Below are positions 12,122 to 26,290 of a stretch of 64,000 nucleotides of DNA, piece by piece. The stretch spans positions 124,001 through 188,000 of the forward strand of contig DAHUYM010000001.1 in NCBI GenBank assembly GCA_027315205.1, given 5' to 3'. A model generated the notes under the pieces. It made no database searches. It saw only the letters and a program-made list of their open reading frames with translations, and was not told the origin of the DNA. Every line of letters begins with the position of its first letter. Position 1 is the stretch's first letter. Made by a program: the position numbers and the translations under genes. The DNA is from Leptospirillum sp. (GTDB lineage: Bacteria; Nitrospirota; Leptospirillia; Leptospirillales; Leptospirillaceae).

Positions 12122-12985
12122 TCAGGCAAAAATCGGAAATGCTCCCCAGAAACCGATCGCGATGACAAGCCCTATCCAGGTATGCGCCCGGAAATACCTT
12201 TGCGCCTGGTGTGGATCGAGCCCAATCCGGATCCGGATTGCCTGATAGAGGATCAACAGAAAAAAAATCCCGACCGACCATGAGAAAAAATGGTCAAGTC
12301 CGAGGGAGGCGCCGGCCGATAAAAGAAAAAGGGCCGAGGATGTCCCGAAAAGAAAGACAGCAATCCAGAGATGACGCCCGAAGGTTACAGCACCCGATCG
12401 AACCCCGGTCCGGATGTCGTCTTCCCTGTCGGAGATTGCGTAAACAAGATCGTAGGCCGTGGCCCAGAACAAACCGGCCAGTCCGATGGCAACCCCCGTC
12501 CAACCAATGATCCCCTTCCCCTCCGTCCAGGCCATGATCGGAGCTGTCATCCCGAACGGGATCCCCATGAAAATCTGCGGGATAGGGAGGAACCTCTTCA
12601 TCAGGGGATAGACCAGAGCGGTCCCGAATCCGACGATGGCCACGACGATGGTCAAAGGTCTCAGGAAAAGAAGGAGCGAAGCGGCAAGGAATGAACAGAG
12701 GACGAAAACGGCCAGGGCACCACGGACCGATATACGCCCGGACGGGATCGGACGGTTGCGCGTTCTCGATACCCGCGCATCGATATGGCGATCGAGAATA
12801 TCGTTGATCGCACAGCCGGCGGACCTCATGAAAAAGGCGCCCAGGAAAAATACCGCAAAAAGAGAGACGGGGGGGGAACCATTCCAGGCGGCCAAGAGCC
12901 CCCAGAGCCCCGGGAGGAACAAAAGGTAGGTCCCGATCGGACGATTGAACCGGATTAGGTCCAGCGCCGCACGCAACGAATCCAC
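12122..12985 (-). CDS. ubiA: 4-hydroxybenzoate polyprenyltransferase
   Basis: UbiA attaches a polyprenyl chain to 4-hydroxybenzoate in the membrane, an early step of ubiquinone-type quinone synthesis. About eight or nine hydrophobic helices are visible. Both prenyl-diphosphate/Mg-binding motifs are present: NDILDRHID in the first half and YDLVYAISDREDD in the second. The GTG at 12985 has GGAGG eight bases upstream and gives 287 residues; a GTG at 12991 overlapping the ubiC stop is the alternative. The neighbouring ubiC-like and ubiE genes support the hydroxybenzoate route rather than menaquinone. Confidence 0.9.
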   Translation of the reverse strand: MDSLRAALDLIRFNRPIGTYLLFLPGLWGLLAAWNGSPPVSLFAVFFLGAFFMRSAGCAINDILDRHIDARVSRTRNRPIPSGRISVRGALAVFVLCSFLAASLLLFLRPLTIVVAIVGFGTALVYPLMKRFLPIPQIFMGIPFGMTAPIMAWTEGKGIIGWTGVAIGLAGLFWATAYDLVYAISDREDDIRTGVRSGAVTFGRHLWIAVFLFGTSSALFLLSAGASLGLDHFFSWSVGIFFLLILYQAIRIRIGLDPHQAQRYFRAHTWIGLVIAIGFWGAFPIFA

Positions 12986-12987
12986 AG

Positions 12988-13491
12988 TCACTCCCTCCGC
13001 GGAAAGAACCCTACGAGCGAGGGAAGAAACCATTCCCGAAGCGTCAGATGTGGTCCCGGTTGAGCGACAAGGTCATACTCCCGTCCCCAGAGCGTAAGGT
13101 CGGACCAAGGGTCATCCGGGAATCCCGTTCCGAGGCTCTGAAAAATCACGAGACCCTTTCTGACCAGGGGTCCCTGCGTTTCATGGAGCAATGGTCCTAT
13201 AGGGCGAGGATCGGAGAGCAGAGGGAGGTATCGATCGGCTTCCCGGTCCGAAAGACGGGTCACCGCATGGACCACTCTGCCGAGAGGGGGCAAGAAGAGG
13301 TTGACCCTGCGCTCGCGATCCGAAGGGGGAGGAAGGAGTTCGACACGGACGTTCCCGCATCCGAGAAATTCGAGAGCCCGTGTCAGGGAACCATCGATAC
13401 CAAGCAATAGCCTTATTTCGGGAGGGATCTCCCGTAATGAGTCCCATCCCTCGACACCTTCCCTATAGATCTCCCGATAAGAGCCGGCCAC
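12988..13491 (-). CDS. ubiC: Chorismate lyase (chorismate-pyruvate lyase)
   Basis: UbiC removes pyruvate from chorismate to give 4-hydroxybenzoate. The 167-residue length matches the family. Recognisable segments are DGSLTRALEF near residue 34, RPIGPLL with the Gly-Leu pair used in ligand binding, the LWGREYDL segment and the C-terminal LREWFLPSL, where the Glu is the likely catalytic acid. Identity to well-known UbiC appears low, so the call rests on motif order, size and the ubiA neighbour. The GTG start follows the radical SAM stop with no gap; no strong ribosome binding site is visible, implying coupling. Confidence 0.8.
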   Translation of the reverse strand: MAGSYREIYREGVEGWDSLREIPPEIRLLLGIDGSLTRALEFLGCGNVRVELLPPPSDRERRVNLFLPPLGRVVHAVTRLSDREADRYLPLLSDPRPIGPLLHETQGPLVRKGLVIFQSLGTGFPDDPWSDLTLWGREYDLVAQPGPHLTLREWFLPSLVGFFPRRE

Positions 13492-15093
13492 TTAGGGGAG
13501 GCTCGAAAGTTCCAGGGAGGTCGGGGCCGCGGGAGGCTTGGAAGAGCCTTTCAAGGCAGCCGTCAGCTCCCTCATGACAGCGCGGCCGATCTTCATCGGT
13601 TCTTCGTCCCAAGCGGCCAGACACGCCCGGGCAATCATCTTTCCCAGACGTCCCGGATTGTACAGAAGTTTACGGATCGTCACAGGGTTCAACGCGATCG
13701 GGTTATAGTCTTCCTCCAGGTACCCCTCCCGGATCAGTCTCTTTTCAAATCCCGTATGGGGCTGGACCGCGAGGAAAAAAACCATCGGATAGACACGATC
13801 TTCCCCAAAGATACTGCATATCGCCTGATAGGAACGGATCGATTCCCAGAGAGATTCTTCCGTTTCTCCTGGCGCGTTCAGGGAGTAGTTCAGGATGATA
13901 TTGCCCTGATATCCCGCATCCTTGAGGTTTCGGCACCCCTGGATCAATTGATCGAGCTTGAAGCCCATCCGGAGGGAGTCCAGGATCTCCTGGGACCCCG
14001 AAGTCACAGCGACCTCGAGATCACCCATGCCGGACTCTACCATGAGGGAAGCCATTTCCGGAGAGATGAGGCTTGTACGGATATATCCGCTCCACTGGAT
14101 TTTCATGCCGCTATCCCGAATCGCCTTCAGGAGGTCCATCGCTTCCGGTATGGCCTTGACCCCAGGGATGAACTGGGCATCGGCAAACCAGAAGTACCGA
14201 ATCCCCCATCGTTCGTAATATTGCCGCATTTCCCCGACAACGTCTTCGGGATCCCGGTAGTGGACCCTCTTCCCTTCGATATACGTATAGAGACAGAAGG
14301 AACAACCATAGGGGCAGCCGCGTTTCGTCTGGATCCCGACCATAGTCCTGTGATAATACGGGTGGCCGTCGAACACTTTTTCAAGGTATGGCAGGTCGAA
14401 CGGAGCACGGCGGATCGCAACCGTTCCCTCTTTTTTCCCACGAACGGTCTTGCCCCCCGACCGGTAGATCACACGGTCGTCGTCGATCGGACGTCCTTCC
14501 ACAACCTTGATGAGAGCATCCTCACCCTCACCGATCACGCCGATCACCCCTTCGGGAAGAAGCTTGATGATTTGGGATGCAAAAACGGAAAAGGCCCCAC
14601 CTCCGACCATGATCTTGGCTTTAGGGGCATATTTCATGCCCGCTTTAATCAGTTTGAGCTTTTTATTGAATTCGTTCCTGTAACGCCACACCATGCGGAT
14701 CCCGTCGAAAGCCGCCCGTACACGGACAAGGGGATTCGGAGAATAGTAGAACTCGAACGCACGCCGGAGAGAATTGTCGCCTTCGTGCGGTGCAAAAATC
14801 TGCACATCCCTCCATGAAAACGCAAGAAGGTCGGGACGGAACGCATTGATCCGCTCGCGAAGGGCGTCCATCAGGCGGGACTCCTCGACCTGAGTCAAAT
14901 CGAGGATCGAAATCTCGACTTCAGGGTGATGGCGGTGAAGCCAATTGACAAGATACCCTATGCCGACGGGAAATATCGGGTTGACAGGAAGCCAGATGAA
15001 AAGTGCCCTCTTCAGGACGGATTTAGGTCCATCGCTCATCATGGGGATGGGCTGTCCCGAAGGGATCGTAACCGTGTTCTCCATCACCGACAT
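13492..15093 (-). CDS. B12-binding-type radical SAM protein inside the ubi operon
   Basis: The 533-residue protein begins with a cobalamin-binding-like Rossmann region (about residues 28-200, with IMVGGGAFSVFA and GVIGEGEDA). A radical SAM core follows, with the cluster motif CPYGCSFC (Cys260, Cys264, Cys267). A GNIILNYSLNAPGETEE segment and a C-terminal helical part of about 100 residues follow. The usual DxHxxG cobalamin motif is not evident, so B12 may not be bound. The gene lies between ubiE and ubiC with gaps of zero to one base. Function unknown; a ring modification in quinone synthesis is an inference from context. Confidence 0.85.
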   Translation of the reverse strand: MSVMENTVTIPSGQPIPMMSDGPKSVLKRALFIWLPVNPIFPVGIGYLVNWLHRHHPEVEISILDLTQVEESRLMDALRERINAFRPDLLAFSWRDVQIFAPHEGDNSLRRAFEFYYSPNPLVRVRAAFDGIRMVWRYRNEFNKKLKLIKAGMKYAPKAKIMVGGGAFSVFASQIIKLLPEGVIGVIGEGEDALIKVVEGRPIDDDRVIYRSGGKTVRGKKEGTVAIRRAPFDLPYLEKVFDGHPYYHRTMVGIQTKRGCPYGCSFCLYTYIEGKRVHYRDPEDVVGEMRQYYERWGIRYFWFADAQFIPGVKAIPEAMDLLKAIRDSGMKIQWSGYIRTSLISPEMASLMVESGMGDLEVAVTSGSQEILDSLRMGFKLDQLIQGCRNLKDAGYQGNIILNYSLNAPGETEESLWESIRSYQAICSIFGEDRVYPMVFFLAVQPHTGFEKRLIREGYLEEDYNPIALNPVTIRKLLYNPGRLGKMIARACLAAWDEEPMKIGRAVMRELTAALKGSSKPPAAPTSLELSSLP

Positions 15094-15094
15094 C

Positions 15095-15832
15095 TCACTT
15101 GACTCCTATATGGAGCGCAACGATCCCACCCGACAGGTTCCTGTATGAAACCTCACGGAAGCCGGCTTTCAGGATAATCTCCCGAAACCTTTCCTGATCC
15201 GGGAAACGGGCAATCGATGCGGGAAGATATTCGTATATCCCGGTCCGGTCTCCAGAAACGACCTTTCCGATCCAAGGCAAGATAAAAAAGGAATACAACC
15301 GGTACAGTTGCCTCCATAAGGCATTCGTGGGCGTCGAAAATTCAAGACAGACAAAACGTCCACCCGGTTTCAGGACCCGATGGATTTCGGCAAGGGCCAT
15401 TTCAAGGCGGGAAACGTTCCTCAAGCCGAAACCGACCACCAGACGATCGACGGAACCGTCCCGAAACGACAGCGTTTCGGCATTGCATTGGACGACATCG
15501 ATATCCGCCCGGTCCGGAGATGGGACGCCCTCCAGCTTTTCCTTTCCCACCTTGAGCATCGCAAAATTCAGGTCGACCGTCAGGACTTTTCCGTTTTTCT
15601 CGGCTTTTCGGGCGGCCAGGAGGGAAAGGTCGGCCGTGCCGCCGCAAAGGTCAAGCACCACGTGTCCAGGCTCTACGCCAAGGAGACCGATCGCAAGCCT
15701 CTTCCAGTGATGGTGAAGGCCAAAGCTCAGGACGGTATTGTTGATGTCGTACGCCTTCGCAGCGGACGTGAACATCTTCTGGACGACCGTTTCCTTGTCC
15801 GCTGTACCGGGCAACGTGTAAGTTTTCATCAT
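15095..15832 (-). CDS. ubiE: Quinone C-methyltransferase, UbiE/MenG family
   Basis: This SAM-dependent methyltransferase adds the ring C-methyl group to a prenylated quinone precursor. The 245-residue protein has motif I VVLDLCGGTADLSLLA, the UbiE-specific FGLRNV segment, and the conserved HRVLKPGGRFVCLEFS. The start is uncertain: ATG at 15832 or 15829 sits immediately after a TATAAT box with no ribosome binding site, so the message may be leaderless; an ATG at 15853 would fall between promoter elements. It heads the ubiE-radical SAM-ubiC-ubiA group and is divergent from the phosphatase gene. Confidence 0.92.
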   Translation of the reverse strand: MMKTYTLPGTADKETVVQKMFTSAAKAYDINNTVLSFGLHHHWKRLAIGLLGVEPGHVVLDLCGGTADLSLLAARKAEKNGKVLTVDLNFAMLKVGKEKLEGVPSPDRADIDVVQCNAETLSFRDGSVDRLVVGFGLRNVSRLEMALAEIHRVLKPGGRFVCLEFSTPTNALWRQLYRLYSFFILPWIGKVVSGDRTGIYEYLPASIARFPDQERFREIILKAGFREVSYRNLSGGIVALHIGVK

Positions 15833-15835
15833 GTC

Positions 15836-15865
15836 ATTATAGTGGAGAGACATCGATTTTCGCAA
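15836..15865 (-). promoter_or_regulatory. Sigma-70-like promoter for the ubiE operon
   Basis: On the minus strand TTGCGA (15865-15860) and a perfect TATAAT (15841-15836) are separated by 18 bases. The expected transcription start, about seven bases beyond the -10, falls on or beside the ubiE ATG, which implies a leaderless mRNA. Confidence 0.6.
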
Positions 15866-24994: not shown

Positions 24995-26218
24995 TCAGAA
25001 TGTCCTGTTCGGCTTGAAGCGGGGCAACAACGTTCGAAAGGGAAGATTGAGCAAGTTTTTTCCGATGGAACGTGAAAACGAACGATAATCATGAGCGCCC
25101 CGGAGAATGGCCGCATAGAGGGAAAGAACGTGAGGATATTTCTGGACCAAACGGAAATAGACCCCCGGGAATCGATAGATCACGGCCGCAAGTCGCCGGG
25201 CCTGGGCAAAATCACGGAAGAGGTCTTGACGGATCCAGCCGGCATAGGAGAGACTCGCCGCTTTGGGGTGGTTTTCGTGTTTCAGAATCTCGGAAACGGC
25301 TTTTTTCGCCGAAAGGATCGCATAATAGATCCCTTCTCCCAGGAACGGGTCGACAAGACCCCCGGCGTCTCCCAGAAAAAAAAGCCCCGGGATCTTTCCG
25401 TGACGGTCAGACTCCTGGTAGTCCGGCACAAACCACGTCCTCGGCTCTTCCCGGGTGGAAGATCCCTCTGTTCCAGGAAGGATCCTCGATACGAATCCCC
25501 CTAGTACGGCCAGGGGATCTGTCAACGGTTTCGAAAATCCGATCACCCCGATATTCTCTCCAGACCGTGATTTCGGAAACGACCAGCCATAACCGCCGGA
25601 TACGAACCCGAGATCGATCCGTACCAATCCCGGGGATACCGGATTGGAGCCGGAGATATTGATTTCGGAAGAGGGAAAGCTCTTTCCGAGGTGTTTTACC
25701 GAAGAGCGTCTCTGGAAGCGCGGCCGGAATGACCCAGGTTTTTTCGTCCGGTTCAGGAGAGACCTGGAAACCTGGCTCGAAGCACCGTCTGCCGCCAACA
25801 AAAGCGGGGCCGTATAAAGATTTCCACCTTCGGTTGCGATCCTGAAATCCGATCCATCCCATCCGATCTCTTCGACCTGAACACCGGTGACAATGAGCGC
25901 GCCATCCTTTCTGGCCTCCTCCAGAAGGAAATGATCGAATTCCTCCCTTCGGAACTGATAGGCGATGGGCATTCCCATATCCACTTCCACTGGACCATGG
26001 TTGTCGTATGTCAGGCAAACCCCGGTCGTCACCTCGTGAGGAACCGACTGCCATCCGATCGGAAGATAGGGGATCGACCGTGCGGACACTCCGCCCCCGC
26101 ACGTCTTGAATCTCGGGAATTCGGACCTGTCGATGCCAACCACACTTAATCCGGCTTGGGAAAGAAGGCGAGCTCCGGTCGAGCCGGCCGGGCCCAATCC
26201 CACCACGATGGCGTCCAT
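24995..26218 (-). CDS. Geranylgeranyl-reductase-family FAD oxidoreductase
   Basis: The 407-residue flavoprotein has the N-terminal FAD motif VVGLGPAGSTGARLL and the family marker CGGGVSARS, whose Cys-Gly-Gly-Gly is typical of geranylgeranyl reductases. A second FAD-binding segment, FFLGDAGGLVDPFLGEGIYYA, lies near residue 290. Members reduce double bonds of isoprenoid chains in lipids, quinones or chlorophyll. I took the ATG at 26218 directly before the FAD motif; the frame extends to 26248. Downstream is the M50-like protease. A role in quinone side-chain or lipid saturation is possible but not shown. Confidence 0.85.
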   Translation of the reverse strand: MDAIVVGLGPAGSTGARLLSQAGLSVVGIDRSEFPRFKTCGGGVSARSIPYLPIGWQSVPHEVTTGVCLTYDNHGPVEVDMGMPIAYQFRREEFDHFLLEEARKDGALIVTGVQVEEIGWDGSDFRIATEGGNLYTAPLLLAADGASSQVSRSLLNRTKKPGSFRPRFQRRSSVKHLGKSFPSSEINISGSNPVSPGLVRIDLGFVSGGYGWSFPKSRSGENIGVIGFSKPLTDPLAVLGGFVSRILPGTEGSSTREEPRTWFVPDYQESDRHGKIPGLFFLGDAGGLVDPFLGEGIYYAILSAKKAVSEILKHENHPKAASLSYAGWIRQDLFRDFAQARRLAAVIYRFPGVYFRLVQKYPHVLSLYAAILRGAHDYRSFSRSIGKNLLNLPFRTLLPRFKPNRTF

Positions 26219-26290
26219 CTTTCTGGAAGCCGGCATTACCGGAACCATCGGAGATCTAAGGGCAAGCGGGGGACAGAGTACAATGGCACC

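Follow-up and report, generated by a model that had tools for sequence, protein, structure and literature searches.

In Leptospirillum sp. of the phylum Nitrospirota (GenBank assembly GCA_027315205.1), a B12-binding radical S-adenosylmethionine (SAM) protein, here called rSAM, is encoded between ubiE and ubiC. The window, i.e., the whole stretch of DNA that was analyzed, comprises 64,000 nucleotides of contig DAHUYM010000001.1 (positions 124,001 to 188,000), and the head-to-tail, minus-strand gene order ubiE-rSAM-ubiC-ubiA spans positions 12122 to 15832 of it. rSAM is a member of the methyl-plastoquinone (mPQ) pathway, and the best explanation of the cluster is that it represents an mPQ operon. 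Within this pathway, rSAM is a putative cobalamin-dependent radical SAM ring C-methyltransferase, a reading with a probability of roughly 0.6. We infer methylation as its reaction, as well as the target carbon and the chemistry proposed below.

Two Nitrospira species contain mPQ and no other type of quinone (PMC12324825). MpqA to MpqE have been named as the enzymes of mPQ biosynthesis, with the decarboxylation step assigned to the UbiD-type protein MpqD (PMC13386864). rSAM is not among MpqA to MpqE as named there (PMC13386864); the primary mPQ paper (Elling 2025) may already list it. NCBIfam matches of the cluster and related proteins include no model naming an Mpq radical SAM protein. The cluster resembles the published pathway in its ubiE product, which scores 343 bits on NF052510 (MpqE; cut-off, 335 bits) and thus belongs to this family, and in the UbiA- and UbiC-type genes that accompany it.

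rSAM, MpqE, and the futalosine-menaquinone family PF02621 were searched for in one set of 296 genomes from the phylum. All 133 genomes with rSAM also encode mpqE, and the futalosine marker is found in a single one of them (G007, with 6% contamination). PF02621 has no match in the source genome (G000); this search did not cover the Men pathway. In 119 of the 133 genomes, mpqE is the gene immediately upstream of rSAM and has the same orientation, with a median gap of 65 bp; in the remaining 14, the two genes are on different contigs. The full ubiE-rSAM-ubiC-ubiA order recurs in the distant family f8 (G007/L038), which, together with the upstream position of mpqE, excludes a chance arrangement. 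The ubiE-rSAM pair is also found in L143, a metagenome-assembled genome labelled Actinomycetota. The constant presence of mpqE, the rarity of the menaquinone marker, and the gene linkage place rSAM in the mPQ pathway. They also bear out the proposal of an earlier note on this DNA that the radical SAM protein works in a nonstandard quinone pathway, here that of mPQ, with the futalosine marker strongly excluded; a family unlinked to ubi genes in the relatives, which would have spoken against that proposal, is not what was found.

rSAM combines a radical SAM core (PF04055) with a B12-binding domain (PF02310), both above the Pfam cut-offs; the latter domain had gone unmentioned in the earlier note, which had pointed out the CPYGCSFC motif. 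This motif is present (C260, C264, and C267) and is invariant in 18 relatives. An N-terminal B12-binding domain followed by a CxxxCxxC core places rSAM in class B, i.e., among cobalamin-dependent radical SAM proteins. The AlphaFold2 model of rSAM (pLDDT, 84; pTM, 0.84) has the class B fold: Foldseek ranks TsrM closest (6WTE/6WTF; E value, 1e-20; TM score, about 0.62 to 0.65; ~18% identity), followed by AprD4, MgmA, CysS, OxsB, and TokK. TsrM, a cobalamin-dependent radical SAM tryptophan C2-methyltransferase, has the closest solved fold and methylates an aromatic carbon, albeit of a different substrate, and may serve as a precedent for ring methylation by the B12-radical SAM fold. MenK/MqnK are class C, HemN-like proteins without a B12 domain and act on a naphthoquinone. 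What they would have in common with rSAM is the radical SAM C-methylation of a respiratory quinone ring (PMC13386864, PMC8065906).

The best NCBIfam match of rSAM by far is NF045585 (Slr0320), at 495 bits over residues 28 to 514, which is below the cut-off of 775 bits; other Nitrospirota proteins score 429 to 454 bits, and cyanobacterial members score 931 to 1082 bits. rSAM is ~40% identical to cyanobacterial members and shares with the Slr0320 family full-length homology, the B12-binding and radical SAM architecture, and a host that presumably makes a plastoquinone-type quinone. It differs from that family in its score, its nonphototrophic host, and its position inside a ubi cluster; the cyanobacterial Slr0320 loci that were examined have no ubi gene cluster around them. 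NF045585 is named after a photosystem II (PSII) high-light acclimation radical SAM protein. In Synechocystis, the slr0320 mutant shows slow QA-to-QB transfer and has normal PSII activity with an artificial quinone, and its authors raised plastoquinone (PQ) methylation as a possibility (PMC8065906). Cyanobacterial PQ hydroxylation has been assigned to an O2-dependent hydroxylase (PMC13386864), which leaves methylation as a candidate role for Slr0320.

Outside the phylum, the rSAM family is found mainly in Cyanobacteriota among the best 80 of 575 relatives, so that rarer hosts may be missed. It is present in 63 of 146 genomes of Cyanobacteriota, always above the cut-off, and in 2 of 175 genomes of Pseudomonadota, both times below it. 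With this distribution, the family follows PQ and mPQ, not ubiquinone. The deep part of the rSAM tree is poorly supported and its outgroups are distant, and the direction from donor to recipient is not readable from it. The two members from Pseudomonadota (L163:9956-11608 and L248) are divergent, with 353 to 376 bits on NF045585, and one of them lies between era-type and helicase-like genes.

To turn 4-hydroxybenzoate into mPQ, a cell has to prenylate and decarboxylate it, hydroxylate the ring once, and add three C-methyl groups. Ring C-methyls are the extra feature common to PQ and mPQ relative to ubiquinone. In the proposed scheme, UbiC (MpqC) would convert chorismate to 4-hydroxybenzoate and UbiA (MpqA) would prenylate it, with ring decoration then leading to a trimethylated benzoquinone. 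rSAM would install either one or both ring methyls common to PQ and mPQ (C5/C6 in ubiquinone numbering), possibly by TsrM-like chemistry, in which the methyl of methylcobalamin is transferred to an electron-rich aromatic carbon. MpqE would methylate C2, the position that UbiE methylates in the ubiquinone pathway, and MpqD/UbiX would carry out decarboxylation. The single ring hydroxylation would fall to a separate flavin hydroxylase in most of the phylum, including the source genome, or to UbiU/UbiV in two families.

The earlier note had considered decarboxylation, hydroxylation, or methylation of the ring and had argued from the absence of a flavin hydroxylase in the window. The window indeed contains no UbiH-type gene, but the argument built on it is invalid because the same genome encodes a UbiH-like flavin protein (here FADOH) on another contig (G000:C4:16333-17556). 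FADOH is found in nearly all mpqE-positive genomes. The tested genomes of families f8 and f9 have no FADOH, and their remaining PF01494 matches are mostly weak; these genomes carry proteins of the U32 family. The U32-family and associated proteins examined in them score 395 to 453 bits for UbiU (cut-off, 440), 282.5 bits for UbiV (cut-off, 275), and 81 bits for UbiT (cut-off, 46.9), and the genes for UbiU and UbiV are adjacent in f9. UbiU and UbiV pose the same question of pathway position as rSAM, with which they are found in f8 and f9, but are Fe-S proteins of the U32 peptidase family and bear no relation to radical SAM enzymes. rSAM is present alongside either hydroxylase type, so that hydroxylation seems not to need it, and its pairing with UbiU/UbiV in two families suggests a mainly O2-independent mPQ route. 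Since hydroxylation has other enzymes and published work gives decarboxylation to MpqD, C-methylation is left for rSAM; it fits best of the three ring steps, and hydroxylation or decarboxylation by rSAM is less likely.

Genes of the UbiU/UbiV/UbiT type in mPQ-type genomes of f8 and f9 are found at L217:7534-9597, L218:6489-8735, and L221:387-1412, as well as in L219, L222, and L223. The f9 genes for UbiU and UbiV (and UbiT) adjoin clpX/clpP-type genes.

Five near-complete Nitrospira genomes without a working rSAM (G045, G129, G169, G229, and G271) represent natural DISPLACEMENT. In G229, 5' and 3' remnants of rSAM (amino acids [aa] 11 to 43 and 465 to 552) flank two genes, one for the methyltransferase MT67, which has a membrane segment at its N terminus, and one for a second FADOH. 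A 3' remnant of rSAM lies beside the same pair in G045. No rSAM remnant was found in G271, where MT67 and the second FADOH share a contig and lie close to mpqE but ~8 kb from each other. rSAM carries an internal deletion in G129 and is full of stops in G169, with MT67 and the second FADOH located elsewhere in both genomes. As seen at L057:4294-7371 and L056:4822-7646, the cassette consists of a divergent gene pair, encoding the MT67-type methyltransferase and the UbiH-like hydroxylase, in or beside rSAM remnants. MT67 is 70 to 81% identical to cyanobacterial proteins, and its N terminus presumably resembles that of Sll0418, the cyanobacterial MPBQ/MSBQ methyltransferase. Some Nitrospira appear to have swapped rSAM for a PQ methylase of cyanobacterial origin. 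The proposed overlap in function with the Sll0418/VTE3-type enzymes, whose Nitrospira version sits inside the rSAM remnants of G229, would join proteins of unrelated folds, since the latter are nonradical class I SAM enzymes.

Second FADOH copies are 90 to 97% identical across three Nitrospira genera, whereas native FADOH is ~65 to 81% identical to them; this closeness of the second copies indicates that MT67 and the second FADOH are probably a recently transferred cassette. Native FADOH has disappeared from G045, G129, and G229 or survives there in fragments; G169 and G271 retain it. On the simplest reading, the incoming FADOH takes over from the native one and MT67 takes over from rSAM. Among mpqE-positive genomes that are at least 98% complete, rSAM loss is seen in 5 of 17 with MT67 versus 0 of 72 without it (Fisher P value, 1.5e-4, phylogeny ignored). 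In total, 9 of the 142 mpqE-positive genomes have no rSAM match, and four of these are the displacement cases G045, G129, G229, and G271. As for the others, the contig ends just inside rSAM in G044, mpqE is at the contig start in G167, G165 and G221 are incomplete, and G243 is treated below.

In many Nitrospira (e.g., L041:9846-13342), rSAM is followed by genes for a universal-stress/PCP_red protein and a SPASM radical SAM protein. These genes stay beside mpqE where rSAM is lost.

Several observations weigh against rSAM being the ring C-methyltransferase. One of the three ring methylations has no assigned enzyme in the scheme given above. AprD4 and OxsB, whose folds are near that of rSAM, are not methylases, so that the fold alone does not decide on methylation. 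The genome counts are uncorrected for phylogeny. The cyanobacteria G361, G414, and G424 encode an MT67 homologue and no member of the Slr0320 family, which makes Slr0320 dispensable in some PQ makers; the MT67 homologue was scored among the best 14 candidates per cyanobacterial genome, and MT67 absences there carry no meaning. In G243 (L060:3885-4974), mpqE is present, the usual slot lacks rSAM, and MT67 was not found either; this genome is one unexplained exception among the better assemblies. Finally, rSAM is retained in 18 genomes that have MT67 and lack the second FADOH. Loss of rSAM tracks the pair and not MT67 alone, which leaves room for a hydroxylase swap. G188 has MT67 and a second FADOH that is ~25 aa shorter, and it still keeps rSAM. 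One speculation is that rSAM may act before hydroxylation, in which case skipping it would need a hydroxylase that tolerates the unmethylated phenol.

The foremost alternative is that rSAM is an O2-independent ring hydroxylase, which would use water-derived oxygen like BchE and work either alongside the flavin hydroxylase or in its place, as UbiU/UbiV do for ubiquinone. rSAM is lost or broken in each of the five near-complete genomes whose second FADOH is intact, MT67 alone never accompanies such a loss, a flavin hydroxylase gene occupies the rSAM slot in G045 and G229, and the B12-binding radical SAM protein BchE is a distant sequence relative of rSAM. However, f8 and f9 hold UbiU/UbiV together with rSAM and most mpqE-positive genomes hold a flavin hydroxylase together with rSAM. 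With other hydroxylases present, a hydroxylase rSAM would be redundant in nearly all of its hosts, yet it is almost never lost; moreover, in three of the five genomes it is the native hydroxylase that has given way to the second one. Hydroxylation had been the first idea, taken from the flavin hydroxylase in the rSAM slot, and was demoted in view of the near-universal FADOH, UbiU/UbiV elsewhere, and the PQ-type methyltransferase in the cassette; it is now considered unlikely.

A somewhat less likely alternative is that rSAM acts elsewhere in mPQ metabolism, where its target would be the prenyl tail, an uncommon derivative of the quinone, or a quinone-binding protein or cofactor. An accessory product would agree with the normal growth of the slr0320 mutant under normal light (PMC8065906) and with the 14 genomes in which rSAM and mpqE are on different contigs, but not with the near-universal retention of rSAM in mPQ genomes across 13 families, its tight linkage to mpqE, or its replacement by a cassette with a ring methyltransferase. 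The same 14 genomes would suit a chance operon neighbor with an unrelated job, which is highly improbable given the presence of mpqE in every rSAM genome, the linkage of the two genes in numerous families as well as in L143, which is labelled as another phylum, and the slr0320 phenotype, which is tied to PQ (PMC8065906). Least probable is a pathway decarboxylase: this step is required and UbiD was not searched for in the source genome, but the UbiD-type MpqD is already a published pathway member (PMC13386864) and the cassette that replaces rSAM brings no decarboxylase.

If rSAM is indeed the ring C-methyltransferase, organisms that produce mPQ need cobalamin to make their respiratory quinone. 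A single enzyme family is then indicated for both mPQ ring methylation and the cyanobacterial PQ pathway, which was not fully determined as of 2020 (PMC7133116), and Slr0320 gains a testable biochemical role. It is tempting, if doubtful, to regard the B12-dependent rSAM as the ancestral C-methylase for the ring methyls common to PQ and mPQ, which would stand beside a class I PQ methyltransferase in cyanobacteria (as Slr0320) and would have been displaced by a class I enzyme in some Nitrospira. If true, this would tie high-potential quinones and the PQ of early oxygenic photosynthesis to cobalamin and O2-independent chemistry. The Nitrospira with lost or displaced rSAM and the two families that pair it with UbiU/UbiV offer natural experiments.

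Table 1. Genes of the putative mPQ operon (window coordinates)
Gene and product	Position	Strand	Family assignment
ubiE / mpqE, quinol C-methyltransferase of mPQ synthesis	15095-15832	-	NF052510 MpqE; PF01209
B12-binding radical SAM protein (rSAM), Slr0320-like, 533 aa, proposed ring C-methyltransferase	13492-15093	-	PF04055 + PF02310
ubiC-like chorismate lyase (MpqC type), 167 aa	12988-13491	-	Profile match to PF01947-type protein; 2NWI/DUF98 by profile and fold
ubiA, 4-hydroxybenzoate polyprenyltransferase (MpqA type), 303 aa	12122-13033	-	PF01040; TIGR01474 below cut-off

The four genes are as tightly packed as the earlier note had described them, with gaps of 1 bp between ubiE and rSAM and 0 bp between rSAM and ubiC and a 46-bp overlap of ubiC and ubiA when ubiA is taken to start at its first ATG. 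ubiE starts with ATG; an alternative TTG start at 15865 is possible. Its product scores 248 bits on PF01209. The UbiA product clearly belongs to the UbiA superfamily (182 bits on PF01040) and scores 244 bits on the 4-hydroxybenzoate octaprenyltransferase equivalog TIGR01474, below the cut-off of 275 bits.

The ubiC product has no direct Pfam match. Its family profile matches a chorismate-lyase-type protein of PF01947 (hhalign E value, 3.4e-12), and both the profile and a modest-confidence structure model match 2NWI/AF1396 (Pfam DUF98). By profile and predicted fold, the gene can be assigned to the chorismate lyase (UbiC/PF01947) type. The idea that UbiC is misnamed, raised by the lack of a Pfam match and by weak MarR matches, was dropped after the profile comparison and the fold.

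Elsewhere in the window, positions 24995 to 26248 (minus strand) encode an FAD-dependent protein with a weak PF01494 match (E value, 1e-7, at 25757 to 26218). It resembles geranylgeranyl reductases and could saturate prenyl chains.

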